Shown here: piece by piece, positions 1,331 to 43,291 of the stretch
Position numbering within the stretch: position 1 is the stretch's first letter
Layout: the number at the start of each line of letters is the position of its first letter
Virus record (IMG/VR): IMGVR_UViG_3300020119_000042
Location: 1-43,340 of that record
Source of the DNA: a virus
Reading direction: 5' to 3' (one strand)
DNA length: 43,340 bases
Made by a program: the position numbers and the translations under genes
Notes under the pieces: generated by a model
The model's input: the letters and a program-made list of their open reading frames with translations, nothing else
What the model was told of the DNA's origin: nothing
Databases searched by the model: none

Positions 1331-1582
1331 TCAGTGACACACCGCCCGGATCGCCGCATTGTTAGCAATGACTGCCGCGATGGTCTCGGTCGTGTCCTGC
1401 CGCGATAACTTCACCACCCGCACCGATGCGCAGAGCGGGTCTCTAATCTCTGAAGTCCTCGGGAAATTTCCGTTTGAGGGCGTCAGCGACAGCGCCGGGG
1501 TTGGCTGAACCTTCGGTGACGGTGCGCAAGACCCCAGCGCTGGCATCAGCGCGAGCAACAGCAGCAGTGGTAACAATCGCAT
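1331..1582 (-). CDS. Small lipoprotein, outer spanin (Rz1)-like
   Basis: An 83-residue protein with a textbook lipoprotein signal: Met-Arg, a run of leucines, then LGS-C at position 19. The mature part is proline-rich near its start (APSPKVQPTP). The ATG at 1580-1582 has AGGAAAGGG just upstream. The first 140 bases overlap the 3' half of the gene at 1443-1721 in another frame, the nested layout typical of Rz/Rz1 spanin pairs. That, the lipobox and the lysis setting suggest an outer-membrane spanin subunit that joins its partner across the periplasm to disrupt the outer membrane. It is longer than many Rz1 proteins and the role is inferred. Confidence 0.6.
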   Translation of the reverse strand: MRLLPLLLLLALMPALGSCAPSPKVQPTPALSLTPSNGNFPRTSEIRDPLCASVRVVKLSRQDTTETIAAVIANNAAIRAVCH

Positions 1583-1721
1583 GGGCGGCCCTTTCCTGGA
1601 CAAGTTCGGCCTCGGCGGTGGCGTTGCTGGCGGCGATGTCCTCGATCTTGGGTGACGCCCGGCGCAGGCCAAGCATCCCCAGGAGTGCGTCGAACAAGGC
1701 CGAGAACAGGCCCTTGAACAT
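1443..1721 (-). CDS. Possible inner spanin-like protein
   Basis: A 92-residue protein. The N-terminus (FKGLFSALFDALLGMLGL) is a strongly hydrophobic or amphipathic helix. After it comes a charged, alanine-rich helical part (IEDIAASNATAEAELVQERAAH) and a basic C-terminal end. This is the size and order of an Rz-type inner spanin, and the lipoprotein gene is nested in its 3' half in another frame. No residue signature proves the family. The start is the ATG at 1719-1721, overlapping the upstream TGA; a GTG one codon earlier is possible. Confidence 0.5.
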   Translation of the reverse strand: MFKGLFSALFDALLGMLGLRRASPKIEDIAASNATAEAELVQERAAHAIVTTAAVARADASAGVLRTVTEGSANPGAVADALKRKFPEDFRD

Positions 1722-2266: not shown

Positions 2267-2779
2267 TTAGGTGCAGACTTTCAGGGCTTCCGTCTCGACG
2301 GCATCGCACCGCCTGAGCCAGCCCTTGCCAAAGGTGTCGAAGGTCCCGAGCGCGCGGTAATAGTCGCGCCGGGCGTTGGTGAACTGCCGGACAAACTCAG
2401 CCGTCCCATTCTTGGCAAGGAAGGCTTTCAGGGCAGCGGCGGTCTTCGGGCCGTATTCGCCATCGCGCAGCCCACCGACGATCGTCTGCAACAGGCGGAC
2501 CGCGCGCACTGGTCCTGCGTTGACGCCCATGTCGAACAGGCACAGCGCCACCGGAGCGGACAGGTCGTCGCAGTGCAGCGGGAGCCAATACATCATCCGG
2601 TAGATTGGAGCGACCTGAGCCGGGGTGAGGGCGCGCATGTCCACCGCAGGCTTGCCGGTGAAGGCTTCCCAGGTGCGGCGGGTGATGCCCAGCATCGTTT
2701 CCCCGCCGGGATCTTTGGGGTTGTTGCAGTAGCCCCCCTCCTGCTTGAGAACGACTGCAAGCGCGTCGGCGAAGGTCAT
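2267..2779 (-). CDS. Endolysin, glycoside hydrolase family 108
   Basis: A 170-residue N-acetylmuramidase that cleaves peptidoglycan glycan strands at lysis. The N-terminal GH108 domain has the catalytic glutamate in the EGGY motif (Glu14), followed by the family pattern NNPKDPGGETMLGIT at about 19-33. The C-terminal part (about 85-165: FDMGVNAGPVRAVRLLQ and DGEYGPKTAAAL) matches the peptidoglycan-binding domain usually fused to GH108. The length is normal for the family. There is no signal peptide, so it needs a holin for release. The ATG overlaps the stop of the upstream small gene (ATGA). Confidence 0.93.
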   Translation of the reverse strand: MTFADALAVVLKQEGGYCNNPKDPGGETMLGITRRTWEAFTGKPAVDMRALTPAQVAPIYRMMYWLPLHCDDLSAPVALCLFDMGVNAGPVRAVRLLQTIVGGLRDGEYGPKTAAALKAFLAKNGTAEFVRQFTNARRDYYRALGTFDTFGKGWLRRCDAVETEALKVCT

Positions 2780-3334: not shown

Positions 3335-3407
3335 TTCTCTGTCTCCGCAAATAATTGCATAAAATTAGAGAGTTGCGCGTCCAGAAGGATCGGCGTTTAC
3401 TGCCGAG

Positions 3408-4352
3408 ATGCTGCTAGCCCCTCCGGCACCGCCAGCCGCCCTAGGCGCGGCTAAGATCATTCCATATGCTGTGCTGGTGGGGGCAGCGGCCTTCGCGGGG
3501 TGCATTGTAGGGCTGACCTCGTTCCACTTTGGATCTGGAGAGGTTGTCCCGGTCTGCCTTCTGCTGGCGTGGATTCTGTTCAGCGGGCTGGTGGCCCAAC
3601 GACACGGGATGACGAGGGTCGGTCGCCTGCTTGAAGCGGCGTCACTTCCCAGCCTGGTCTCAATGCTTTTCACCGTTTGCCTGTTCGAGGTGACGGCGAC
3701 ATCGTTACCGCTCGCCGATGGCTGGCTGGCCCGAGTTGATCAGTGGCTTGGCTTCGATTTCCGCTGGTGGTTGTCGTTCTACCAGCACCACCCTGCGATC
3801 CTTGCTCCGAGCGGCACGGTTTACAACGCGCTGACCTATCAGATCTTTCTGCTGCCGATGGTCCTGTCGATCTCCGGTCAGCACCGCGCACAATGGGTTC
3901 TGGTCAATGCATGGGCGGTATCACTCACCCTGCTTGCGCTTCTCTACCCGCTGGCCCCGGCGGCCGGCCCCTTCGTCCATTACGGCATCGTCCCGCAGGA
4001 TTTGCCCGGCGCGCCGAACCTCTTCGTATGGGATCAGGGGCGGGTGATCACCGACATTCAGGCTGGCCTTCGGCGCAATGTCGGCGCGGCGGCGGTGGGC
4101 CTGGTCTCAATTCCAAGCTTTCACGCTTGCGGCGGGGTACTGCTGATGTGGGCCAGTCGCGGACTTGTTCGCTTGCGTTTGGTGCTGCTACCCTTGAACT
4201 CAGCCATGATCGGGACGGCCATTGTGATCGGGGGGCACTACCTTGTTGATATTCTCGCGGGGTTGGTGCTGGCGATCGTCGCCATCTTGGTTGTGGAGCG
4301 GGTCGTGCCACAGGAAGCCGCGCCCCACTTCATTCAACCGAGCTCCGCGTAG
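3408..4352 (+). CDS. PAP2-superfamily membrane phosphatase/transferase
   Basis: A 314-residue polytopic membrane protein of the PAP2_3 type. Conserved PAP2 motifs are visible: SIPSFHA at about 234-240 (the serine/histidine motif) and GGHYLVD at 275-281 (the catalytic histidine and aspartate). Several hydrophobic spans lie at about 20-40, 48-64, 80-100, 145-155, 163-185 and 262-298. Relatives act on lipid phosphates or transfer head groups, and the PAP2_3 group includes inositol phosphorylceramide synthases. It is the only plus-strand gene between the lysis and tail operons. It is preceded by an AT-rich stretch with TAAAAT at 3360-3365 and overlaps the fibre gene tail to tail by 19 bases. It looks like a moron gene. 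Substrate unknown. Confidence 0.8.
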   Translation: MLLAPPAPPAALGAAKIIPYAVLVGAAAFAGCIVGLTSFHFGSGEVVPVCLLLAWILFSGLVAQRHGMTRVGRLLEAASLPSLVSMLFTVCLFEVTATSLPLADGWLARVDQWLGFDFRWWLSFYQHHPAILAPSGTVYNALTYQIFLLPMVLSISGQHRAQWVLVNAWAVSLTLLALLYPLAPAAGPFVHYGIVPQDLPGAPNLFVWDQGRVITDIQAGLRRNVGAAAVGLVSIPSFHACGGVLLMWASRGLVRLRLVLLPLNSAMIGTAIVIGGHYLVDILAGLVLAIVAILVVERVVPQEAAPHFIQPSSA

Positions 4353-5734
4353 AAGCTCATCATCGCAATAGTAGCCGCAGAAGCTATGGCCCCGTTGCGA
4401 ATGGAAAATTGTTCGCCCAGCAAAGTGGTCGCCGTGGGTAGATCGGAGGAGGCCGACCCCTCGGTAAACTGCGCGCTGTCGAACCGTTCCAGCGAGTAAT
4501 AAACGGTTGAACCTCCCGGTGCGCAAAACAGGCGCATTTCGTAAACGCAGCCCGTGGTTTTGCCCGGAAAATTGGCGCCGAGATCAGTCTTGGTCGCCGT
4601 CCCGCTCGCATCGTTGACCATGAACTGGATATTGCTGTCGGCAGCATCAACACCAAAACCAATTATATTCGTCTTGGCCGAGGGGTCGCCAGTCAGGCTG
4701 AGCGCGTCGGTCAAGCCCATGAACCACTGGAAGCCCGCGTTGAACGTGGCCGGCATGCCGAAGCGCAGCGAGTAGAAGAAACCGCCTGTCGTCCAGAAAA
4801 ACTTAACAGAGAAGCCGTTTACTTTGTTAGTTCCGGCCGAACCGGAGGTGGCGAGTTCAACGCGACGTTCCTGGGTGGCGGCGTTGGTAGTCGACATTGT
4901 GCCATTGTTGCCGCTGTAACCGCCATTCATGCCGAATGTTGATGGGGTTGAGCTTTGCGGCTGAAGCAGCATGATCTGGCGATTGGCGAGGGTTCGCTGA
5001 ACTTCCCATGCAGACAAGGGCGAAATGGCGCTGAGGGAATGCCTTCCCGCGCGCTTGCGGTCGAAGATTGTGAGCCCGGTGCCCGGCGTACTCGGACTGG
5101 TGGATGTGTATTCGGTCGAAAGATCGGTCGTACCACCACCGCCTCCGGTCGCGTCAATGGTGATGGTGTCCCCCGCGTCGTTCACTGTGATCGTGACGTT
5201 TGAGCCCGCGACAAGGGCGGTGCCCATGACATCGCGGACCTGCTCGTCGGTATAGCCCGAGCCCGCCGCCGCATCCACTGTCAGCGTGTTGGCCGCGTCA
5301 TTGTAGGTCAGGGTGATGCCGGAACCGGCCACCAGCAGCGAAGCCACGCGATCATCGATCGTCTCATTCGAGACCGACGCGCTGTAGGCGACCCAGGCGG
5401 AGCCGTCCCACTTGTATTCGGCGTCCTCATCCTGGACGTAGGCCAGCACGCCCTCGTCGATCGCCCCGAGCTCCCGGTAATACCAGCCGCTTGCCGCGTT
5501 GGTGCCGACTGCCGTGGCGATCTGGCCTTCCTTGCCGTTAAACGCTCCCGTGGCCGTGGCAATGATGATGTAGTTCGCCCCGTCCGCGCAGGTGCCTGGA
5601 GGAGCGGTCACCCGATCGGCCACGGGGTAGCGCCCGGCGCCAGCCTCGGTGCGGCGGATCTGCTCGTTGACCGTGGTTTCGGGCACGGCCTGGCTGAGCC
5701 CGAGTTCGGGCGCGCCGCGCGGCGTAGAGGTCAT
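4334..5734 (-). CDS. DUF2793 tail fibre / receptor-binding protein
   Basis: A 466-residue tail protein. The N-terminal ~115 residues are a DUF2793 domain (LGLSQAVPETTVNEQIRRT; GWYYRELGAIDEGVLAYVQD), commonly attached to the tail tip of alphaproteobacterial phages. Next come two short beta repeats (AGSGITLTYNDAANTLTVDA and AGSNVTITVNDAGDTITIDA) and a glycine hinge (GGGGG at about 200). The C-terminal ~210 residues form a beta-rich domain that resembles the C-terminus of the fibre at 18305-19300 (RFG, GLT/GMT, DSNIQFMVND). It probably binds the host surface. It lies immediately downstream of the tip protein. Confidence 0.8.
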   Translation of the reverse strand: MTSTPRGAPELGLSQAVPETTVNEQIRRTEAGAGRYPVADRVTAPPGTCADGANYIIIATATGAFNGKEGQIATAVGTNAASGWYYRELGAIDEGVLAYVQDEDAEYKWDGSAWVAYSASVSNETIDDRVASLLVAGSGITLTYNDAANTLTVDAAAGSGYTDEQVRDVMGTALVAGSNVTITVNDAGDTITIDATGGGGGTTDLSTEYTSTSPSTPGTGLTIFDRKRAGRHSLSAISPLSAWEVQRTLANRQIMLLQPQSSTPSTFGMNGGYSGNNGTMSTTNAATQERRVELATSGSAGTNKVNGFSVKFFWTTGGFFYSLRFGMPATFNAGFQWFMGLTDALSLTGDPSAKTNIIGFGVDAADSNIQFMVNDASGTATKTDLGANFPGKTTGCVYEMRLFCAPGGSTVYYSLERFDSAQFTEGSASSDLPTATTLLGEQFSIRNGAIASAATIAMMSFYAELG

Positions 5735-5753
5735 GCTGCTCTATCCTTGCTGG

Positions 5754-8700
5754 TTAGACGGTGGCGCTGGCGCGGAAGCCACGCCCCACGGAATCGCTGA
5801 TCTGGTAGACCCGGAAGTTCACGCTGCTCTGGCCGGAACCGAAATCGCTGGTCTGGTTGGCCGCGCTGTAGGTGTAGGCGGGCGAAGTCAGCCCGGTGAC
5901 GGTGCGCACCACGCTGCCGCCGTTCATGATCTCCAGCTCGTATTCCTCCGAGGCCTCGCCGAGGGGGACCGAAGTGCCCGAAGTCCATGCGCCGCCGATG
6001 CGCGAGCGGCGAACCCACGACAGCGCCCAATCACCCGTGCCGGAATCCTTCACCCCCGCGAGATGGCAGGGCGCATAGGGCTTGAGGCTCGCCCCGGTGA
6101 ACGGCGCCAGCGGGATCGGGAAGGCCGAGGTCGCCGTCCGCCCCGAGGTCACCGCCTTGAAGCTCATGTCGGTGCCCACGTCGGACAGGCCCTTGGTGGC
6201 CGTAGCGACGTGACTGAGCAGCAGGAACACGTCGCGGCTCGCATGGGTGCCCGTCGCCCATTCGGTGCCCCGGCGGCCCCGCTTGAAGCCCGAGAGGGTA
6301 TAGGTCCCGTCGCTTTCGAGCGTGGCCGTGGTGAAGTTGACCAGCTCGTCGCCGATCAGGGTGAGGTTGCGGGTCGGAAGCGCGTCGATATCCGCTTCGG
6401 TGCAGCCGGTCAGGGTGCCGGTCTGGATCGTCACATTGAGGCTGCTCGCCCGGTCCCACAGGTTCGGGTTGGCGTCAGGCAGGGCGGCGTTGGCATAGCC
6501 CCACGTCGCCGAGGAGGTGGAGGCAATCGAGCCGATCTCGTCGGAATATTCCCCGCCCGAGAGTTGCTCGTAGACCGTCGCCCCCGGCCATGTGCCGGTC
6601 GCGTAGGGCCCGGCCGCGAGGTAGATGATCGGGTTCGCCGAATTGTGCGCGTCGGTCAGCAGCGGCACGTCGAGCACGAAGCCCTTGGAGATCAGGGGAA
6701 CCACGATCACGCTGGGATCACGCCCGTCGAACGCCGCGCCGGACCCGCCGTTGAGCAGGGCCAGACTGGAATGATCATAGACCCATTCGGTGGCGAGGCT
6801 GTCGTCGGCCTTTATGGTCAGTTTGGTGAGGCGAGCGGTTAACTGCTCGCCGTCGAGATCGAGCGTGCGCACGTCGCCCGGTTCCAGCGCCAGTTGCTGG
6901 GCGGTCAGACCCAGCGAGACTTCCCAGCGCTCGTTCCAGAAGCGGCGGAAATAGCGGTCGGCCAGATCGCGCGCCGGATCAGGGGCAATCGCCAGTGTCG
7001 AGAGGTCGATGGATTTCTCCCCCCGCGCCCCGGTGGCGTCCAGGGGCCGGTCGGCACGGACGTTATTGGGCTGCTGGTCGGCCTCAAGGTCGGCGAAGTT
7101 GATGGTCACCGCGCGGGGCAGTTCGGCGGACTGGCGGACTTTGACCGAGTACCGAGGCGACCCCACGAACCGCTCGGTCAGCAGGGTGCCGCCGCTGGTG
7201 CCGGTGCGTTTCAGCCCTTGCAGGGTGAACTCGTGCGAGCGGATATCGCTGTCATAGGTATCAAGCAATGGTTCAAGGATGGCGCTCGCCTGCCCTTGGG
7301 TCGCGCTCCACCCCTGGATGACCTGATCGAGCGCGGTGAAGTCGGTGTCCTGCGCGTCCACCATATCGGCCAGCGCCGTGGCAATCGTGCCGAGGGTTAC
7401 GCCGTTGTTGGCCTGCCGGTCGAGATAGTGCCAGATTTCGTAAGTGGTCCCGGAGATGCCGAGGTTTTCGATGATCGCGTGGTTGATCGGATCATAGAGA
7501 GCGCGATTGCCGAAGGTGGACGAGTAGGCTGTCCGCAGGACGGCCCCCGTGATCAGGCTGATCTCGTTGCCGCGCACCCAATAGCTGGCGGCCCCGGGCG
7601 GGATGTTGTCCCAGATGGGCTGGTCAAAGCCGAACCCGTTGGTGCCGTTGGTGCCCACATCGACGCCAGTGACGGTGCCCGGCGCGGCCGGATCGAACAC
7701 CCAGTTGTAATAGGTTCCGCTCTGCGGGCGGGGGCCAAAGATGAACCGGTCGCCAATGTCGGCCTTGGTGTGGTGGCCAAAGATCGCCGTCGAAGTCGAC
7801 GTGGGCAGCGTAATTGTGATGGTCGAGTCCCACCCGGCCCCCGACCCGCCGTCGATGATCCGAACAAAGGTGACAGTATATCCGTTCGGAATCAGCGCCC
7901 AGATATCGCCGTAGGCGTCGGCGAACACGTCCGAGACGCCGCCGAGCGCGGTTTCAGCCCCGTCGATGATGATATAGGTGCTGCTGCCGTAGGCAATCCA
8001 GTGTTCGGCCCCCGTCGCATCGGCGATCACCCGCACACTGAACTGGCGGTGATCCCCCGCGAACGGCCCCATGATGACCGAGGCGATCAGCCCATCGGGC
8101 GAGACCTGGTACACGTTCTGGTACTGGTCGCCCATCATGACGATGGTGCCGTCGTTATAGACCCCGATCGCGGACCCGCCCGCCGGATATTCGAACGGCA
8201 GCGTCCCCCAGATCATCGGTGCGCGGGCGGCGACATCCCAGATCTCGTATTCGGGATAGGAGGCAGACCACTGCACCAGCAGCAGCCGGCTGAAATCCGG
8301 CGAGTAGCTGGCAAGGTTCCACCCGGTGGTGATGACCGGATCGGCAACCTGCTGCGTCGGCACCGAGGTCGACGCGGCGTTGGCGATGAACTCGACCGCG
8401 ACCTGCGGAATGCGGTTGCCGAGCTTCTCGAGCGGCACATCCTTGAACACGATGTAGGCAGTGCCGCGATAGGCCGGGCAGGAGCCTTCCTCATGCCGCG
8501 CTTCAGTCCATGCCTGAATGCGCGGATCAGGGTCCTGCGTTTCGGTCCCGGTGTAGATGGCGAAGTAGGATGACGCCCCGCTCTTGCCGCCGGTGGATAC
8601 CTCGCGGGCACTCTTGCCGCTGCTGGTCTGCCCGAAGTCGAACGGCGTGACCGGACCCGCGCCGGACAGGTCGAACACCAGATGGGTATCAAACCACACC

Positions 8701-9005
8701 CGGCGGACGGTCTGGATTTCGTGACCGGCCAGGGCCACGGCCCACGTCCCGTAATACTTGTAGGAGTTGTATTTCCCGCCCTTGGTCTTGTTCTCTTCCT
8801 TGACCTCTTTCAGGTCTTCTGCCCAGAAAATGGGGGTCTGGACGCGGCGCATTCCCCAGACCATCGCCAGCGGGTTACCGTAATCGCCGGAGGTGAACTT
8901 GAGATCGTCAAGGCGCGGGCCGTCGATCTTCTTCGTCATGGTCAGCGCCATATTGGCGGCGGTCATGCCGATCTGGATGGCCAGCTTGGCGACGAAGTTC
9001 AGCAC
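5754..9005 (-). CDS. Tail tip / host-specificity protein (GTA- and J-like)
   Basis: A 1083-residue baseplate hub protein. The N-terminus (MLNFVAKLAIQIGMTAANMA, then GNPLAMVWGMRRVQTPIFWA) is the start seen in GTA-like tip proteins. Residues ~220-560 hold a beta-rich insertion with repeated blade-like strands (SRLLLVQWSASYPEYEIWD; DAYGDIWALIPNGYTV) that may fold as a propeller. The middle (about 620-800) matches the conserved tail-protein core (DLADRYFRRFWNERWEVSLG). The C-terminal part has fibronectin-like and decoration strands (GFKRGRRGTEWATGTH). It is preceded by the NlpC/P60 and DUF2163 genes in the standard GTA-like order, so it forms the distal tip that contacts the receptor and guides DNA entry. 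Confidence 0.85.
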   Translation of the reverse strand: MLNFVAKLAIQIGMTAANMALTMTKKIDGPRLDDLKFTSGDYGNPLAMVWGMRRVQTPIFWAEDLKEVKEENKTKGGKYNSYKYYGTWAVALAGHEIQTVRRVWFDTHLVFDLSGAGPVTPFDFGQTSSGKSAREVSTGGKSGASSYFAIYTGTETQDPDPRIQAWTEARHEEGSCPAYRGTAYIVFKDVPLEKLGNRIPQVAVEFIANAASTSVPTQQVADPVITTGWNLASYSPDFSRLLLVQWSASYPEYEIWDVAARAPMIWGTLPFEYPAGGSAIGVYNDGTIVMMGDQYQNVYQVSPDGLIASVIMGPFAGDHRQFSVRVIADATGAEHWIAYGSSTYIIIDGAETALGGVSDVFADAYGDIWALIPNGYTVTFVRIIDGGSGAGWDSTITITLPTSTSTAIFGHHTKADIGDRFIFGPRPQSGTYYNWVFDPAAPGTVTGVDVGTNGTNGFGFDQPIWDNIPPGAASYWVRGNEISLITGAVLRTAYSSTFGNRALYDPINHAIIENLGISGTTYEIWHYLDRQANNGVTLGTIATALADMVDAQDTDFTALDQVIQGWSATQGQASAILEPLLDTYDSDIRSHEFTLQGLKRTGTSGGTLLTERFVGSPRYSVKVRQSAELPRAVTINFADLEADQQPNNVRADRPLDATGARGEKSIDLSTLAIAPDPARDLADRYFRRFWNERWEVSLGLTAQQLALEPGDVRTLDLDGEQLTARLTKLTIKADDSLATEWVYDHSSLALLNGGSGAAFDGRDPSVIVVPLISKGFVLDVPLLTDAHNSANPIIYLAAGPYATGTWPGATVYEQLSGGEYSDEIGSIASTSSATWGYANAALPDANPNLWDRASSLNVTIQTGTLTGCTEADIDALPTRNLTLIGDELVNFTTATLESDGTYTLSGFKRGRRGTEWATGTHASRDVFLLLSHVATATKGLSDVGTDMSFKAVTSGRTATSAFPIPLAPFTGASLKPYAPCHLAGVKDSGTGDWALSWVRRSRIGGAWTSGTSVPLGEASEEYELEIMNGGSVVRTVTGLTSPAYTYSAANQTSDFGSGQSSVNFRVYQISDSVGRGFRASATV

Positions 9006-14027: not shown

Positions 14028-14446
14028 GCGCGGGTCCACGCGCCCGAGGTACGGAACGAAGCAGCGGCTTCGATCTTGCTGTCAACGCCAGCCGACCAGG
14101 TGTACTTCTTGACCAGCACCTTGATCGACCAGACGTTGCCGTTCGACCAGGTGATCTTGAGCCAGCGACGGTTCTGCGCGTCCTTGGCAGTGATCAGTTC
14201 GGAGTGGCCGGCATCACTGGCGATGGCGTTCATGCTGATCTCGATGTTGCCTTCATCGGGGAGACCGATCAGGTATTCCTTGGCGAGGCTTTCCAGATGG
14301 GTGGTGTCGATGTCAGCCGCTTCACCGGAGGGCGCGCCGATATTGGTCACTTCGCCGATCTTGTCGAAGGTGGCCGAGCCATAAGCAGTGGTGTCGGCGT
14401 CTTCATTCGAGATGTGAACCGTCGAAGTCTGGGACTTGAGGGCCAT
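14024..14446 (-). CDS. Major tail tube protein
   Basis: A 140-residue tail tube subunit. The start MALKSQTSTVHISNEDADTT, then FDKIGEVTNIGAPSGEAADIDTTHLES and the ending KIEAAASFRTSGAW match TP901-1/lambda-V-like tube proteins of alphaproteobacterial phages. It forms stacked hexameric rings. AAGGAAAGGACC lies before the ATG. An intrinsic terminator precedes the gene (14470-14493), so it may have its own transcript start or depend on read-through. Confidence 0.85.
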   Translation of the reverse strand: MALKSQTSTVHISNEDADTTAYGSATFDKIGEVTNIGAPSGEAADIDTTHLESLAKEYLIGLPDEGNIEISMNAIASDAGHSELITAKDAQNRRWLKITWSNGNVWSIKVLVKKYTWSAGVDSKIEAAASFRTSGAWTRA

Positions 14447-14469
14447 GAGTTAGGTCCTTTCCTTGCATG

Positions 14470-14493
14470 AAAAAACCCGCCAGAATGGCGGGT
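14470..14493 (-). terminator. Intrinsic terminator upstream of the tail tube gene
   Basis: On the minus strand ACCCGCC pairs with GGCGGGT across ATTCT and is followed by six T. The stem is a perfect 7 bp. It separates the head-completion genes from the tail tube gene. Confidence 0.75.
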
Positions 14494-14522
14494 GCGGATC
14501 AGGCTTGTGGCCCTGATTTCGG

Positions 14523-14897
14523 TTAGCGGGTGGTCCAGACCATGTAGTCTTGCCGAACCCTGAAATTACGCGTTTCCGGGTCGGGCGCTGGGCCCTCCCA
14601 ATCCTGAAACGTGGCGTAGAAGGCGAGCGTTACGTGGTCGATCGCAGTGCGGACAGCTTCCGCGAGGGCAGCGGCTTGTTTAGCCTCCGGTGACCAGCAA
14701 TCGATCTGGAACCGGGGCCATTCGAGGTTTGCAGGGCCGTCAAGATGATCCGCCCCGGTGGTCGAGACCCGCTGGATAGTGACGTAGGGATAATCCGATC
14801 CCTGCCGCGCGCCCGCCAAGAACACGCGCGTTCCCGCGAGCGCCGCCACGGGAGATGCGGCCTGTAAGGCAGCGATTAGGTCGGCTTCGGTGCTCAT
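14523..14897 (-). CDS. Tail terminator / completion protein (DUF3168)
   Basis: A 124-residue DUF3168 protein, related to lambda U/SPP1 gp17-type tail terminators that cap the tube and join it to the head. Typical features: MSTEADLIAALQAASPVAAL, then GARQGSDYPYVTIQRVST, FQIDCWSPEAKQAAALAEAV and the C-terminal RNFRVRQDYMVW. It overlaps the gp10-like gene by four bases (ATGA). Confidence 0.87.
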   Translation of the reverse strand: MSTEADLIAALQAASPVAALAGTRVFLAGARQGSDYPYVTIQRVSTTGADHLDGPANLEWPRFQIDCWSPEAKQAAALAEAVRTAIDHVTLAFYATFQDWEGPAPDPETRNFRVRQDYMVWTTR

Positions 14898-15295
14898 TTA
14901 CCCACCAACTTGCGAGCTTCACGCTCGACGCCCTTGCCCATGTTCTCGCCGATTGCCTTGATCGCGGCGGCACCATCTTCATCCAGCGTTGGGCGGATGA
15001 ATGGAAAGGCTCGGGAATGTTCGGTTCCGAACTCCGTCAGGTGGACGCGGCGGGAAACCGGCTTCTTGAATCCAACAACGGCATGAGCCTGTCCCTTGGT
15101 CGATTTCTTGGAACTGGAAACAACCGGGGAGTCCGCCAGTTGGCCGGTACGCCGCCGGGCGCGGTGCTTCATGCCCTTGACCAGCACCCGTCCCCCTGCC
15201 TTGAGGCCGTTAACAGCAACCTTCTTGGCCACAGCTTCGGGCAACTGGTTGAGGACCCGCTCCAGATCTTTGGCGCCGAGAACGAAATTCGCCAT
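14894..15295 (-). CDS. HK97 gp10-like head-tail protein
   Basis: A 133-residue HK97-gp10 family protein, a minor head-tail joining component. Family features: LERVLNQLPEAVAKKVAVNG near the start, then KAGGRVLVKGMKHRARRRTG, VHLTEFGTEHSRAFPFIRP and a C-terminal helix. The start is the ATG at 15293-15295, overlapping the TAA of the upstream gene (TAATG); the frame runs further upstream without a better start. Confidence 0.87.
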   Translation of the reverse strand: MANFVLGAKDLERVLNQLPEAVAKKVAVNGLKAGGRVLVKGMKHRARRRTGQLADSPVVSSSKKSTKGQAHAVVGFKKPVSRRVHLTEFGTEHSRAFPFIRPTLDEDGAAAIKAIGENMGKGVEREARKLVGK

Positions 15296-18304: not shown

Positions 18305-19300
18305 TTAGCCGCCGCCCGTCCGAACGCGATAGCCGCCGAATTGCAACACAAAAGCTGTGCCGGTGTTTGTGCCGTTCAGCCCGCCGACGCATTGTGGAAA
18401 CATCATCGCGCCATTCGCCGGGGTATCGGTGCTGGTGCTGGTGTAAAAGATCGCGCCAGTGTCGCGGCGGATCAGCAGCGCGTAGATCGTCAGTGAGCCC
18501 GGTTCAGCCCAGATGGTTGCCTCATACCAGCCATTAGCCACCAACGGGATGCCAGTGTCAGTCTTGGTCCCGCCACTGGCATTGCTGTTGACCAACAACT
18601 GAATGTTGGTGTCGGTGCTGTCGAGCGCAAAAACTGCATAGTTGGCGGTGAAGGAGCTGGGCTCGACGGTTTGGCCTATGAACGTGGTGTTAGTCATGCC
18701 AACAAACAATCGCGGGCCGGTAGGCAGCCCACTAGCACCAAACCGGCAATTAAACTTCCACCCACCCCGGCCGGAAGAACTAGACGCCACCGAGTAGTTG
18801 GTACCGTTTGAATAACCAGCTTGCGCGCTAGCAGTTGTGGCACTGGTGGTTTGGACCCGCGGCTGTTCGGTCAAATAGTTGGTTGTAGCCAAACCAGCGG
18901 TGGCCGCTGTGCCGGTCGCCGTAGGGGCAGCAAGGCCGCTGGCTGTGGTTGTTGTGCTTCCTGGACTGACAGTCAGATCACGCCAAATCCCTGCCGCATC
19001 ATTTCGCACTCGATCGGCGTCAACAACCATCGCCGCAGTGGCGGAAGAGGTCAGGCTGATTGCGGAACCGCTGGAACTGGAGACAAGCTGCGATGACCCC
19101 CGCGAAAGGGTCGTGCCATTCCAGTAGCAGTAGGACAGTTCCCAATTGGAGCCATCCTCAAAGCGAACCAGCCCAATCCAACCCGTTGCTACAGTTGACC
19201 ACGCCAGGAAGGCCGAGGACGCCGCATTCGGGGTGAACGCGCCCGTCCCCGGCGTCCCGGAGGTCGTTCCCTTGATTGCGCTATAGAACGGGCCAGCCAT
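18305..19300 (-). CDS. Second fibre-like structural protein
   Basis: A 331-residue protein starting MAGPFYSAIKGTTSGTPGTG. The N-terminal ~110 residues form a beta-rich attachment-type domain (GWIGLVRFEDGSNWELSYCY; GTTLSRGSSQLVSSS). The C-terminal ~180 residues (WKFNCRFGASG; DSTDTNIQLLVNSNASGGTK; NGWYEATIWAEPGS) align by eye with the C-terminus of the DUF2793 fibre at 4334-5734. It abuts the repeat protein, so the two may form one fibre. Probable surface-binding appendage, attached to the head or neck judging by gene order. Confidence 0.7.
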   Translation of the reverse strand: MAGPFYSAIKGTTSGTPGTGAFTPNAASSAFLAWSTVATGWIGLVRFEDGSNWELSYCYWNGTTLSRGSSQLVSSSSGSAISLTSSATAAMVVDADRVRNDAAGIWRDLTVSPGSTTTTASGLAAPTATGTAATAGLATTNYLTEQPRVQTTSATTASAQAGYSNGTNYSVASSSSGRGGWKFNCRFGASGLPTGPRLFVGMTNTTFIGQTVEPSSFTANYAVFALDSTDTNIQLLVNSNASGGTKTDTGIPLVANGWYEATIWAEPGSLTIYALLIRRDTGAIFYTSTSTDTPANGAMMFPQCVGGLNGTNTGTAFVLQFGGYRVRTGGG

Positions 19301-20630: not shown

Positions 20631-21968
20631 TTAGGCCGCGAACTTCATCAGCTTGATCGCCTCGAAGTTGACAACGCCGCCGCCCACACGCTTGGTCGTG
20701 TAGAACTTGACGTAGGGCTTCGAGGTGTAGGGATCGCGCAGCACGCGAATGCCCTGGCGGTCCACGATCTGGTAGGCCTGAGCGAAGTCACCGAAGGCCA
20801 GGCTGAGCGAGTTCGTCGCCAGCGCAGGCATGTCTTCGGCGCGGGTCACCGCGTAGCCCAGCAGCGTCTCGGGCGTACCGGCCACGAGGCTCGGCTGCCA
20901 CAGATACTGGTTCTGGCCATCCTTGAACTTGCGGATGAGCTGGATCACCGAACGACGGGTGACGAAGCGGGCGTTCGTCAGATAGTCGTTCTTCAGCAGG
21001 CCGACGATGTCATAGAGCTTGTCCGCCGGCGTGGTGCCGGTGAAGTCGCCATTGGCACCCGACTTGAGGAAGCCGATCTGGCCCCAGGTGACGCCCGAGC
21101 CCGAGTCCGCTGCGGCAGTGTAACCACCCGCGAAGCCCATGATCTTGTTGGCGGCACCCGTGCAGAACTCGACGTTTTCAAACCGGCCGAACTTGTCGCC
21201 GACCTTGCCCGAAAGCCAGCCCTCAACGTCCGTAGCAGCGTCGTCAAGAAGCTGCTGGGTGGCCTTGGGCTCGGTGTCGATGATGTGCACCGGAATGCGC
21301 CACTTGCCGATCTGCGGGGTGGTGGTGTCGCCCGAGGTGGTGTGCTCGCCGGCATAACCAGCGCCCGCCTCGCCCAGGTCCTCGATGCCTTCGAGCGCAT
21401 CGGTCGAGATGCCCTGAATGCTCGCGATCTGGCGGATCGGCGAGGTCTCGTAGACCTTCTTGACCATGCGGCCGGTCATGTCGGGGGTGACGAGGTAGCC
21501 GCCATCCGGGTCCGAGCCGACCGAGAGGGTCTTGACTTCCTCGGGGGAGAGCATCCGTTCGTTCTTGGTCAGGAACGAGTTGAACGCCGCCTTGTACTGG
21601 TCGTAGCCGGCAGCATCGAGCGGGGTGAACTGGAGCTTGCGCTCGGCGGCCTCGGCAGCGAGGACGAGGTTGAAGGTCTTGATCTCCAGCTCGTGCTTGG
21701 CGCCGTCGCCGTCGCCCTTGATGTTGAGGCGGTTCATCCGCTTCTCAAGGTCTTCGCGCTCCTTGCGCTCGGCCGCCAGAGCAGCGTCAACCGCAGCCTT
21801 GGCTTCGACCGCCGCATCCAGCGAGGTCTCGATCTTGGTCAGGCGCTCACCGAGAACGGGGTCGTTGATCCCCTTCTTCAGTTCGGTGATCTGCTCTTCG
21901 TGGCTCTTCTTGAAGGCGTCGAAAGCCGCGCCCTGCTGTTCGAGCAGGTTCTTGATTTCATCCGACAT
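20631..21968 (-). CDS. Major capsid protein, HK97 fold
   Basis: A 445-residue major capsid precursor. The N-terminal ~130 residues are a charged coiled-coil delta/scaffold domain (MSDEIKNLLEQQGAAFDAFK ... AERKEREDLEKRMNRL), removed by the prohead protease. The rest is the phage capsid domain: LSVGSDPDGGYLVTPDMTGR, RQIASIQGISTDALE, GKWRIPVHIIDTEPKATQQL and the C-terminal GDFAQAYQIVDRQGIRVLRD. It is directly downstream of the protease gene and followed by a strong terminator. Confidence 0.95.
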   Translation of the reverse strand: MSDEIKNLLEQQGAAFDAFKKSHEEQITELKKGINDPVLGERLTKIETSLDAAVEAKAAVDAALAAERKEREDLEKRMNRLNIKGDGDGAKHELEIKTFNLVLAAEAAERKLQFTPLDAAGYDQYKAAFNSFLTKNERMLSPEEVKTLSVGSDPDGGYLVTPDMTGRMVKKVYETSPIRQIASIQGISTDALEGIEDLGEAGAGYAGEHTTSGDTTTPQIGKWRIPVHIIDTEPKATQQLLDDAATDVEGWLSGKVGDKFGRFENVEFCTGAANKIMGFAGGYTAAADSGSGVTWGQIGFLKSGANGDFTGTTPADKLYDIVGLLKNDYLTNARFVTRRSVIQLIRKFKDGQNQYLWQPSLVAGTPETLLGYAVTRAEDMPALATNSLSLAFGDFAQAYQIVDRQGIRVLRDPYTSKPYVKFYTTKRVGGGVVNFEAIKLMKFAA

Positions 21969-32400: not shown

Positions 32401-32631
32401 TCATGCGGCGGCGCCTTGCTGGGGCGCGGGATAGATGTCCGGCCGCCACTTGTGCCGGTCGATGCCGGTGGCCGCTTCAGCCTTCAGGACATACTCAGCG
32501 GGAAGGGGCGCACCCTTCCGCAACCAGTTGCTGATGTTCTGTTGGCTCGTGCCGATTGCCTCGGCGAACCGGCTCTGGTTGCCCTCGAACGGCTTGGCCG
32601 CGATGGCGCGCTGAAGGGTGGTGCGTTTCAT
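32401..32631 (-). CDS. Cro-like HTH repressor (YdaS type)
   Basis: A 76-residue protein: MKRTTLQRAIAAKPFEGNQS, then the HTH RFAEAIGTSQQNISNWLRKG and EYVLKAEAATGIDRHKWRPD, a typical YdaS/Cro ending. It is divergent from the LexA-type repressor, the arrangement of a lambdoid immunity switch. The start is the ATG at 32629-32631. The predicted promoter -10 (32640-32645) leaves almost no leader, so the mRNA may be leaderless; an in-frame ATG at 32643 would lie inside the -10. It would bind the ACAA-N5-TTGT operators in the gap. Confidence 0.85.
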   Translation of the reverse strand: MKRTTLQRAIAAKPFEGNQSRFAEAIGTSQQNISNWLRKGAPLPAEYVLKAEAATGIDRHKWRPDIYPAPQQGAAA

Positions 32632-32639
32632 GAGACCGG

Positions 32640-32668
32640 ACATTACAACCGAGTTGTTTGGAATACAA
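32640..32668 (-). promoter_or_regulatory. Leftward early promoter (cro promoter)
   Basis: On the minus strand TTGTAT (32668-32663), a 17-base spacer and TAATGT (32645-32640). Both operators at 32645-32677 overlap it, so repressor binding would block it. Confidence 0.6.
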
Positions 32669-32677
32669 CCCATTTGT
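32645..32677. promoter_or_regulatory. Operator pair, ACAA-N5-TTGT x2
   Basis: Two 13-bp dyads: ACAACCGAGTTGT at 32645-32657 and ACAACCCATTTGT at 32665-32677, centres 20 bp apart (about two helical turns). They overlap the predicted promoters of both cro and cI. The same dyad occurs twice at 34437-34472. A looser match (ACAG-N5-GTGT) lies at 32679-32691. Confidence 0.7.
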
Positions 32678-32682
32678 AACAG
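32654..32682 (+). promoter_or_regulatory. Rightward repressor promoter
   Basis: TTGTTT (32654-32659), a 17-base spacer and TAACAG (32677-32682), pointing to the cI gene. It overlaps both operators, so it would be autoregulated. Confidence 0.5.
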
Positions 32683-32716
32683 CTTTGGTGTCAAAAGTTT
32701 TGTAGCACTCGCGGAG

Positions 32717-33400
32717 ATGCTACCCGACGATCCTGGTGAGGCTGGCCTGTGGGCCAAACGTGAGCGTGAGAGGCGAGGCTTCTCCGCGCAGGAAGTCGCC
32801 AACCGCATCAACGCGCTGGCAACTGAGGACGGCGATCCGACGCGCGTTAGCCAGCAAGTGGTGTCTAAATTCGAGAAGGGCGACAACAAGCGGTGGCCCG
32901 CATGGACCCGCTACATTCCCCGCGTGCTTGGCAATAGCGATGCCGAGACGAAGGAGGACAAGCACCTCCACCTCGCGCTCGAAGACGCCAGCGTTCAAAT
33001 AAAGCAGTTACCAACGTGGGCTGGTCTGGGCACTGGTGGGACTGGTGAAGATGACCCCGGGCAGGTCAGCTTCTCGCGCGACTTAATCGAACGCGAGTTA
33101 CGGGCTGATCCGTCGCAATTGCTGGCGATGATCGCCGAGGGCAATTCAATGGAGCCCGACTTCAGGGGTGGCGACCAGATCCTCGTGGATACTCGCCGGA
33201 AGTCACTCGCTCAGCCCGGGGCATTCTGCCTGTGGGATGGCGACGGACACGTCATCAAGTTTCTGGAGAAAGTGCCCGACAGTGAACCGCCGCGCGTTCG
33301 ACTGATCAGCGCGAACGGACTTTACGAGCCTCATGAGCGGCTGTTGGACGAGATTAATCTGATCGGCCGCGTGGTCTGGTTTGGGCGCCGCGTTCAGTGA
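32717..33400 (+). CDS. CI/LexA-type phage repressor with S24 peptidase
   Basis: A 227-residue repressor. The N-terminal HTH lies at about 10-70 (LWAKRERERRGFSAQEVANR; RVSQQVVSKFEKGDNKRW). A linker holds Ala102-Gly103 (TWAGLG), a possible self-cleavage site. The C-terminal S24/LexA domain has Ser144 in EGNSMEP and Lys181 in HVIKFLE. It should dimerise, hold the lysogenic state and be inactivated by RecA in the SOS response. The ATG at 32717 has only a poor ribosome site (GCGGAG touches it). The frame is open further upstream through the operators but without a better start. Confidence 0.9.
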   Translation: MLPDDPGEAGLWAKRERERRGFSAQEVANRINALATEDGDPTRVSQQVVSKFEKGDNKRWPAWTRYIPRVLGNSDAETKEDKHLHLALEDASVQIKQLPTWAGLGTGGTGEDDPGQVSFSRDLIERELRADPSQLLAMIAEGNSMEPDFRGGDQILVDTRRKSLAQPGAFCLWDGDGHVIKFLEKVPDSEPPRVRLISANGLYEPHERLLDEINLIGRVVWFGRRVQ

Positions 33401-42314: not shown

Positions 42315-42477
42315 TCTCCGCAAGGCCCGCGAGAGCGGCAATCTCGACCAGTTCGCCAAGGATCACGAAGGCGACGCCCCCGGCGACGCCGACGCCTTCA
42401 ATCGCGCTGTGGCTTCAATGGCCCGAAAGTCGAAAGAAGCTCCGGCAGCATCACGGAAGCGCAATCGCGACGGTTGA
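42307..42477 (+). CDS. Small charged protein facing the transposase (56 aa)
   Basis: MIDLRKARESGNLDQFAKDH, then DADAFNRAVASMARKSKEAP and a basic end (ASRKRNRDG). I recall near-identical small ORFs next to IS1595/ISXO2-type transposases in alphaproteobacteria. It overlaps the membrane-protein gene by 8 bases and runs antisense into the last 80 bases of the transposase gene. It may be an accessory of the mobile element. Confidence 0.6.
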   Translation: MIDLRKARESGNLDQFAKDHEGDAPGDADAFNRAVASMARKSKEAPAASRKRNRDG

Positions 42478-43291
42478 AGCGGTATTCCGCTTCCTTCGCA
42501 TACTTCCAGAGGTGCTTGCCGCTCACGTGAATGTGAGTGCCGGAGATCGACCGCTTAAGCTGCGCCCAAAACCCTTCGATGCCATTCACGCCGCCCCCGT
42601 TCGAGGTGGTGAACTGGCCCTTGTTGTGACGCACGGTCACGTGATTGAAGCCGAGCGTGTCGAGGCGGCGATATGAGCCGAACTCGTCGGTGGCGACGGT
42701 GGTGCCGGGGTGCACGTTGTCCAGCACAAGCCGTTCCATCGGTTCGCGGTGACGGGTGGTAACGACCGTGGTGACGACCTCGCCGCCACGTTCCAGCATA
42801 CCGACAACCACGTGCTTGTTGCCCTTGTAGCCGCTGCCCTTGCCTTCGACCGAACCGCCGATCAGCGTCTCGTCGATCTCCACAACCCCGCCAGCGCCGC
42901 CAAGCAGATTATCGCCGTCAACGTCGGCCATGTGTTCGCGGATCAGCGAGGCCATGCGCCACGCGGTCTTGTAGGTCACGCCGAGCTGGCGTTGCAGTTC
43001 CTTCGCCGCCACGCCGTTGCGCGTCGTGGTGAACAGGAAAATGGCATAGAACCACAGTTGCAGCGGCGTCCGGGTCTGCTCGAACGGGGTGCCGACAGTC
43101 GGGTGCAGGTGATGCCCGCACCACTGGCAGGAGTAGGCGCGCTCGGCCTTGATGCGGAACCACTTTGAAGGCCGATCACACGACGGGCAAGTGTAGCCCT
43201 GACCGAACCGGACCTCGAACAGGTGAGCGAGGCAAGCCTCGTCGTCCGGGAACTGTTTGAAGAACTCGCGGATGGTCTGGGGCTTGCTCAT
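42398..43291 (-). CDS. IS1595-family (ISXO2-like) transposase
   Basis: A 297-residue DDE transposase. An N-terminal zinc ribbon (CPSC at 35-38, CQWC at 55-58) precedes an HTH region (RNGVAAKELQRQLGVTYKTA). The ISXO2-like catalytic core follows: GGVVEIDE (Asp140), TTVATDEFGSY (Asp202) and GIEGFWAQLKRSISG (Glu239). The gene is full length and intact. On the circle its start is at position 78 of the window. The 3' end overlaps the small plus-strand ORF. In this phage it may simply be an inserted IS, or the only enzyme that could move the phage or its cargo between replicons. Confidence 0.92.
   Translation of the reverse strand: MSKPQTIREFFKQFPDDEACLAHLFEVRFGQGYTCPSCDRPSKWFRIKAERAYSCQWCGHHLHPTVGTPFEQTRTPLQLWFYAIFLFTTTRNGVAAKELQRQLGVTYKTAWRMASLIREHMADVDGDNLLGGAGGVVEIDETLIGGSVEGKGSGYKGNKHVVVGMLERGGEVVTTVVTTRHREPMERLVLDNVHPGTTVATDEFGSYRRLDTLGFNHVTVRHNKGQFTTSNGGGVNGIEGFWAQLKRSISGTHIHVSGKHLWKYAKEAEYRFNRRDCASVMLPELLSTFGPLKPQRD

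Follow-up and report, generated by a model that had tools for sequence, protein, structure and literature searches.

The window, by which we mean the whole stretch of DNA that was analyzed, comprises the 43,340 bases of a virus record and encodes, in addition to the features listed in Table 1, an HK97-type capsid protein, a portal, a terminase, RecT, and SSB. The gene under study lies between a tail fibre gene and the lysis cassette, and is encoded on the strand opposite to both its tail and its lysis neighbours. Upstream of it, on the minus strand, are small open reading frames (ORFs) that belong to no family, then a GH108 endolysin gene and, further on, an Rz-like spanin gene. The first-pass annotation had called the gene isolated, which holds for its strand but not for its 3′ end, where 19 nt are shared with the convergent ORF of the tail fibre. 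The AT-rich upstream region noted in the same annotation is present but short (36 nt): its AT content is 66.7%, versus 37.6% for the whole window, and among 43,303 segments of 36 nt, 71 are as AT-rich. A scan of this patch for promoters found 1 site where 0.6 are expected, i.e., the chance level.

The protein encoded by the large ORF on the far side of the tail fibre gene scores 374 bits against the GTA_megatron model NF048004, under the cut-off of 800 for that model, and we refer to it as megatron-like. Two fibre-like proteins of the window, one near the capsid genes at 18305-19300 (-) and the other at the tail end at 4334-5734 (-), both match phrog_13925 (43.0 and 97.9 bits, respectively), and an IS1595-family transposase (174.6 bits, cut-off 75) is encoded at the right end of the record, at 42398-43291 (-).

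Table 1. Features of the window that bear on the PAP2_3 gene, with their positions and the basis of each assignment
Feature	Position	Strand	Basis
PAP2_3-family polytopic membrane enzyme, 314 aa, ATG start	3408..4352	+	Pfam PF14378; AF2 model; VIA-align to AUR1
PAAGP stretch, aligned with FPAAPPW of AUR1	3957..3971	+	relatives' alignment; AUR1 alignment
PSFHA motif, residues 236-240, catalytic H239	4113..4127	+	translation; 102-relative alignment
GGHYLVD motif, residues 275-281, catalytic H277 and D281	4230..4250	+	translation; 102-relative alignment
Short AT-rich patch 5′ of the gene, candidate own promoter	3340..3375		66.7% AT
Tail fibre-like protein, DUF2793 N-terminus	4334..5734	-	Pfam DUF2793 41.8 bits; phrog_7049 tail fiber
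GTA-megatron-like baseplate/tail protein, anchor of the slot comparison	5754..9005	-	Rcc01698_C and Phage-tail_3; NF048004
GH108 endolysin, other side of the slot	2267..2779	-	Pfam Glyco_hydro_108 97.8 bits; phrog_315 endolysin
Rz-like spanin, lysis cassette	1331..1672	-	phrog_1275
CI-like repressor	32618..33400	+	phrog_4 77.9 bits

Our analysis confirms that the gene encodes a membrane protein of the PAP2_3 family, with a match to PF14378 of 98.8 bits (E 4.4e-28, cut-off 27 bits) over residues 106-294, and with 7 membrane stretches in a simple hydropathy count. Translation bears out the intact PSFHA and GGHYLVD motifs, which supply the two histidines and the one aspartate of the PSxH and HxxxD pattern by which PAP2_3 is recognized. 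The catalytic residues H239, H277, and D281, together with Y139, are invariant in all 102 aligned relatives, so that the loss of catalytic residues that would have spoken against the first-pass reading is not seen. The PAAGP stretch is also well conserved (P184 in 101/102 and A185 in 93/102 relatives). At position 218, the window protein has Q, versus R in 97/102 relatives, and at this site differs from the residue typical of the family. From the sequence and a structural model, we predict that the product of the gene is a PAP2_3 membrane enzyme, probably competent for catalysis, with a fold like that of AUR1 and sphingomyelin synthase. Two other assignments were rejected, although a lack of matches in the collections searched is no proof that none exist outside them. 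A known phage protein family was rejected, since the window protein matched 0 families in PHROGs and had no tblastn match (E<=0.01) in 50,697 phage records, and a known anti-phage defence gene was rejected, since neither the window protein nor four relatives matched any family among the PADLOC anti-phage defence profiles.

Relatives of the protein and host of the phage

Scans of viral and genome contigs with the window protein as a single sequence gave nothing useful. An alignment query that is blind to genomic location and includes four plasmid homologues identified 19 viral contigs, 18 of them distinct once L009 and L010 are merged, and in 9 of these 18 (L009, L011, L013, L016, L018, L020, L022, L023, and L025) the PAP2_3 gene adjoins the tail module, at a distance from it of a few bases to ~5 kb. 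A second scan, seeded by tail-adjacent members and therefore not location-blind, added L179, L180/L181, and L184 and, less closely, L185. Among the best 80 of 273 bacterial homologues, a tail module lies inside the fetched flank in one, from Mesorhizobium (L098). In L023 (around 8999 and 9291, +) and in L098 (5631-5861, +; Pfam Flp_Fap 24.3 bits, below the 32.2 cut-off), Flp-type pilin-like ORFs separate the PAP2_3 gene from the tail genes, and may represent pilus-related cargo of the slot described below.

In related pairs of phages, PAP2_3 is less conserved than the backbone, and the direction in which its gene runs with respect to the tail varies. For example, the megatrons of L016 and L022 are ~71% identical and their PAP2 proteins ~45%, and in L013 and L020 the tail proteins are 73-93% identical and the PAP2 proteins 39%. 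We built a quick maximum-likelihood tree from 102 proteins, with duplicate rows (L001, L010, L028, L029, and L066) removed and with the reading frame of L017 located by tblastn. The window protein lies in surroundings rich in Sphingomonadales, and groups with the phage proteins L009 and L011 and with an enzyme from the chromosome of Sphingomonas mali (SH-aLRT 94); this group nests inside a set of 25 rows starred in the tree (95). The first-pass annotation had asked whether the enzyme would group with host or with phage proteins, and the answer is both: two phage enzymes and one Sphingomonas chromosomal enzyme. Mesorhizobium and Burkholderiales enzymes are the neighbours in the tree of other phage copies that adjoin a tail, and at least 7 changes of the tail-phage label are required on the tree. 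It is therefore likely, on the basis of these sequences, that PAP2_3 moved repeatedly between chromosomes and phages, with an exact placement that is not firm because branches are long and many forks are weak. The closest phage/chromosome pair, L009 and the S. mali locus (L030), encodes proteins that are ~70% identical, and has a dN of 0.244 and a dS of 1.562, giving a dN/dS of ~0.16 with dS near saturation. An ORF near the S. mali chromosomal PAP2_3 gene (L030, 5646-9858) is one that we take, by eye, to be CpaB-like.

A sphingomonad host, which the first-pass annotation had raised as a condition, is plausible and somewhat more likely than not, although the genes of the window do not all agree on this. 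The tail and the PAP2 gene point to Sphingomonadales, and the capsid gene to Hyphomicrobiales: the major capsid protein, encoded at 20631-21968 (-), has a best match of 43% identity among 396 Sphingomonadales genomes, and matches of 61-73% identity in 4 of 397 genomes of the order of Mesorhizobium. By these comparisons, the phage is a head/tail mosaic. No PAP2 was found by BLAST in the capsid-related Hyphomicrobiales prophages, which are uninformative on the slot because their tails are mostly unlike that of the window. PAP2_3 of the window type is present in 7 of 196 Sphingomonadales genomes (E<=1e-10), and this sporadic presence indicates that it is not a core lipid gene there. The scan of window ORFs identified no integrase, and the view of the phage as probably temperate therefore rests on the CI-like repressor.

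The insertion slot and its contents

Using the megatron-like protein as an anchor, we searched 396 Sphingomonadales genomes, of which 122 matched, with many of the matches resembling chromosomal gene transfer agents rather than prophages by their matched length and neighbours. The closest prophage that this search found is in genome G323, of the same order as S. mali, with 59% identity over residues 525-838. This prophage (region L144) encodes a PAP2_3 protein of 402 aa (82.5 bits, Pfam) in the same slot and orientation as the window gene, i.e., on the opposite strand, after the fibre genes and ahead of the lysis genes. BLAST with 102 PAP2 queries found no PAP2 in the twenty downstream regions from the megatron search, the L144 copy included; because this copy was missed, we assign it to another branch of the family, and because Pfam found what BLAST had missed, the other BLAST misses are no proof of absence. 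The Pfam scan within those twenty regions covered one L144 ORF, and PF14378 was run on 11 genomes, 10 of them sources of the regions.

Among viral sequences, the megatron alignment identified 40 loci, and PAP2_3 is present in 2 of these 40 records, both from the same phage (L009/L010). To read the slot, we listed the ORFs beyond the megatron gene in the 17 distinct phages, L009 among them, whose slot is readable, after dropping duplicates (L200, L205, L211, L213, L231, L233, and L010/L219) and records that match only in part or end too soon after the megatron (L198, L004, L212, L214, L218, L221, L223, L224, L226-L230, L232, L234, and L235). At least three membrane stretches are present in 7 of the 82 slot ORFs but in only 2 of the 264 ORFs that lie outside the slots of these loci (Fisher p 0.0008). 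We observe that all seven of these polytopic slot proteins are lipid or surface enzymes: five are Acyl_transf_3 proteins (L202, L203, L204, L208, and L215), one is a fatty-acid hydroxylase (FA_hydroxylase, L207), and one is the PAP2_3 protein of L009. The acyltransferases of L204 and L215 appear related to each other, and the acquisition events in the slot are therefore not all independent. A recognized lipid or surface enzyme is absent from 9 of the 17 slots; that of L225 has only a doubtful PhyH ORF, excluded from the counts since its surroundings look out of frame.

In a set of 50 viral records, which does not include L181 and L184 of the PAP2 set or L232, Acyl_transf_3 is encoded in 7 and FA_hydroxylase in 1, all downstream of the tail module, the L018 copy included. 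The midpoints of the enzyme genes lie 1.9-3.4 kb past the end of the megatron gene, in the direction of the tail, in 11 of 11 measured cases, which include the window and G323 but not L018, and in which two pairs represent the same phage. The gene is a putative moron, and is accessory by its distribution and position: it is present or absent among close phages, at an insertion slot. In L018, genes for a patatin-like phospholipase, an Acyl_transf_3 protein, and PAP2_3 follow one another at 5636-8621, downstream of the tail module, and in L207, a phage related by its megatron, the fatty-acid hydroxylase (PF04116, 85.2 bits) is encoded at 14279-15184 in the tail-side slot.

Fold and candidate reactions

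AlphaFold was run with 14 sequences, the window protein and 13 viral relatives, and gave a model of the window protein with a pLDDT of 85.8 and a pTM of 0.85. In the PDB, Foldseek ranks two structures first, AUR1 with ceramide (9vj4) and Aur1-Kei1 (9ivc), each at E 0.018, and both align with the model in VIA-align at Z 16.1 over 252-256 residues (rmsd 4.3-4.8). Other structures align less well: LpxE at Z 13.0 (161 residues), human SMSr at Z 11.1 (210), and PgpB at Z 10.7 (180). A profile made from the same 14 sequences matched Bacillus subtilis PgpB/YodM with an E value of 0.005 and AUR1 with one of 0.009, and the AUR1 alignment spans the PAxxP stretch and both catalytic motifs. In a library of viral structures, the nearest proteins are sphingomyelin-synthase-like and PAP2 proteins of giant viruses, which are weak matches (E >= 0.045) from viruses of eukaryotes; as the best matches in that library, they indicate that virus-borne lipid enzymes of this fold exist. 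The modelled protein is thus AUR1-like over its whole length, with the PSxH and HYxxD catalytic motifs and the PA-x-P stretch in common with AUR1, but the two are 13% identical, the window protein is phage-encoded, and the fold, although it predicts a mode of action like that of this enzyme class, settles neither function nor the choice between transferase and phosphatase.

One reading, which we regard as unlikely although it accounts for part of the data, is that the protein is a lipid phosphatase of the LpxE/PgpB type acting on lipid A, undecaprenyl pyrophosphate, or phosphatidic acid, which would alter surface charge or support envelope synthesis during infection. The catalytic core of the PAP2 superfamily is shared with LpxE and PgpB, and the YodM/PgpB profile match is consistent with such an activity. 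However, these phosphatases align over only ~160-180 residues, where AUR1 aligns over the full length; the window protein has PAAGP where AUR1 has PAAPP; and K-x6-RP, which we take to be the motif of ordinary PAP2 phosphatases, is not evident in it.

A sphingolipid headgroup transferase, similar to an inositol phosphorylceramide (IPC) synthase and acting on ceramide or glycosphingolipid of the sphingomonad outer membrane so that a sphingolipid receptor is altered, is improbable in our assessment. AUR1 is both the best structural match and within reach of the phage profile, Sphingomonas enzymes are among the nearest sequences, and the slot of a sister phage is filled by a fatty-acid hydroxylase gene. 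A bacterial homologue of AUR1, BT_1522, is required for phosphoinositol dihydroceramide (PI-DHC), and can thus produce an inositol sphingolipid, according to PMC9246714. The window protein, however, scores 19.4 bits against the PI-dihydroceramide synthase equivalog of NCBIfam (NF052609), far under its cut-off of 480, and the same profile that reaches AUR1 matches PgpB/YodM equally well. A specific identity as IPC synthase, an enzyme that the first-pass annotation had named as a member of the family, is therefore not supported, and it is further weakened by the clustering of phage relatives, including other tail-adjacent copies, with enzymes of Mesorhizobium, Burkholderiales, and other bacteria. 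Mesorhizobium and other bacteria in these clusters are not known to depend on sphingolipids. The sporadic presence of the window type in Sphingomonadales and the uncertainty of the host also argue against a sphingolipid transferase.

Probable lysogenic conversion and its meaning

The reading that we favour, and consider probable, is that the window gene is an interchangeable lysogenic-conversion gene whose product edits an envelope lipid or lipid-linked glycan. An enzyme with a sphingolipid-synthase fold sits where related viruses carry surface-modifying enzymes, and it therefore probably alters the surface lipids of the infected cell; likewise, because acyltransferases or a fatty-acid hydroxylase occupy this slot in sister phages, lysogenic conversion is its most likely job. 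Enzymes of the PAP2 superfamily act through a phospho-histidine intermediate. We take the phage to be an alphaproteobacterial siphophage, probably temperate, whose accessory PAP2_3 gene would be active in the prophage or at an early stage of infection. Via such an intermediate, the two histidines and the aspartate of the enzyme would transfer or take off the phosphate-linked headgroup of a membrane lipid or of a lipid-linked glycan. The altered outer surface would then be adsorbed more poorly by other phages or by the phage's own progeny, so that receptors are probably masked or other phages excluded. The data directly show the fold family, the intact catalytic residues, the slot, and the kinds of enzyme that replace PAP2_3 in it, and from these we infer the substrate, the separate expression, and the benefit or effect on phage adsorption. 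The surface remodelling and phage exclusion proposed in the first-pass annotation are independently supported by the Acyl_transf_3 and fatty-acid hydroxylase cargo of the slot. Points against lysogenic conversion are that PAP2_3 is uncommon in this group of phages, that more than half of the slots (9/17) have no recognized enzyme, that position 218 is Q, and that no promoter is recognizable.

Two readings of the gene that assign it no role at the cell surface fare worse. The gene could be selfish or neutral cargo at a recombination-prone site that collects host membrane-protein genes with no selected surface function, as might be expected from the occurrence of PAP2_3 in 1 distinct phage of the 40-record set, from its fast sequence turnover, and from its variable orientation. 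We consider this decidedly unlikely, since the contents of the slot are functionally narrow (7/7 polytopic proteins in 17 phages), the same slot in related phages holds two very different PAP2_3 sequences, and the L009/L030 pair shows purifying selection. A role in lysis or in the virion, proposed because the gene adjoins the lysis cassette with its endolysin and spanin genes, is highly improbable, as the gene is on the strand opposite to the lysis and tail genes, is missing from most relatives and therefore not essential, and belongs to a family for which we know of no lysis role.

Lysogenic conversion by phages is already known. For example, prophage OafA and acyltransferase-3 proteins modify O-antigen, as described in PMC7380047. 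The Acyl_transf_3 (OafA-type) O-acyltransferases of serotype-converting prophages have counterparts in the same slot of sister phages, although their enzyme family and chemistry are unrelated to those of the window protein. PAP2_3 in such a role was without precedent in the literature and phage collections searched; our literature search, at the level of records, found neither a phage-borne PAP2 nor phage sphingolipid enzymes. A PAP2_3 enzyme in the acyltransferase slot would add a third chemistry, the phosphotransfer or removal of a headgroup on a lipid. A bolder reading, which we consider less likely than not, is that alphaproteobacterial phages with GTA-like tails keep a dedicated lipid-editing slot next to the tail fibre gene, and that some of them fill it with AUR1-like headgroup transferases that rewrite an outer-membrane lipid used as phage receptor. 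If this is true, lysogenic conversion would proceed by exchange of a lipid headgroup rather than by addition of a sugar or acetyl group, and in sphingomonads the target could be the glycosphingolipids that replace LPS. The PAP2_3 enzyme also marks the slot beyond the megatron gene as a place to seek surface-modifying enzymes, and would open the poorly known phage receptors of alphaproteobacteria to direct experiment.
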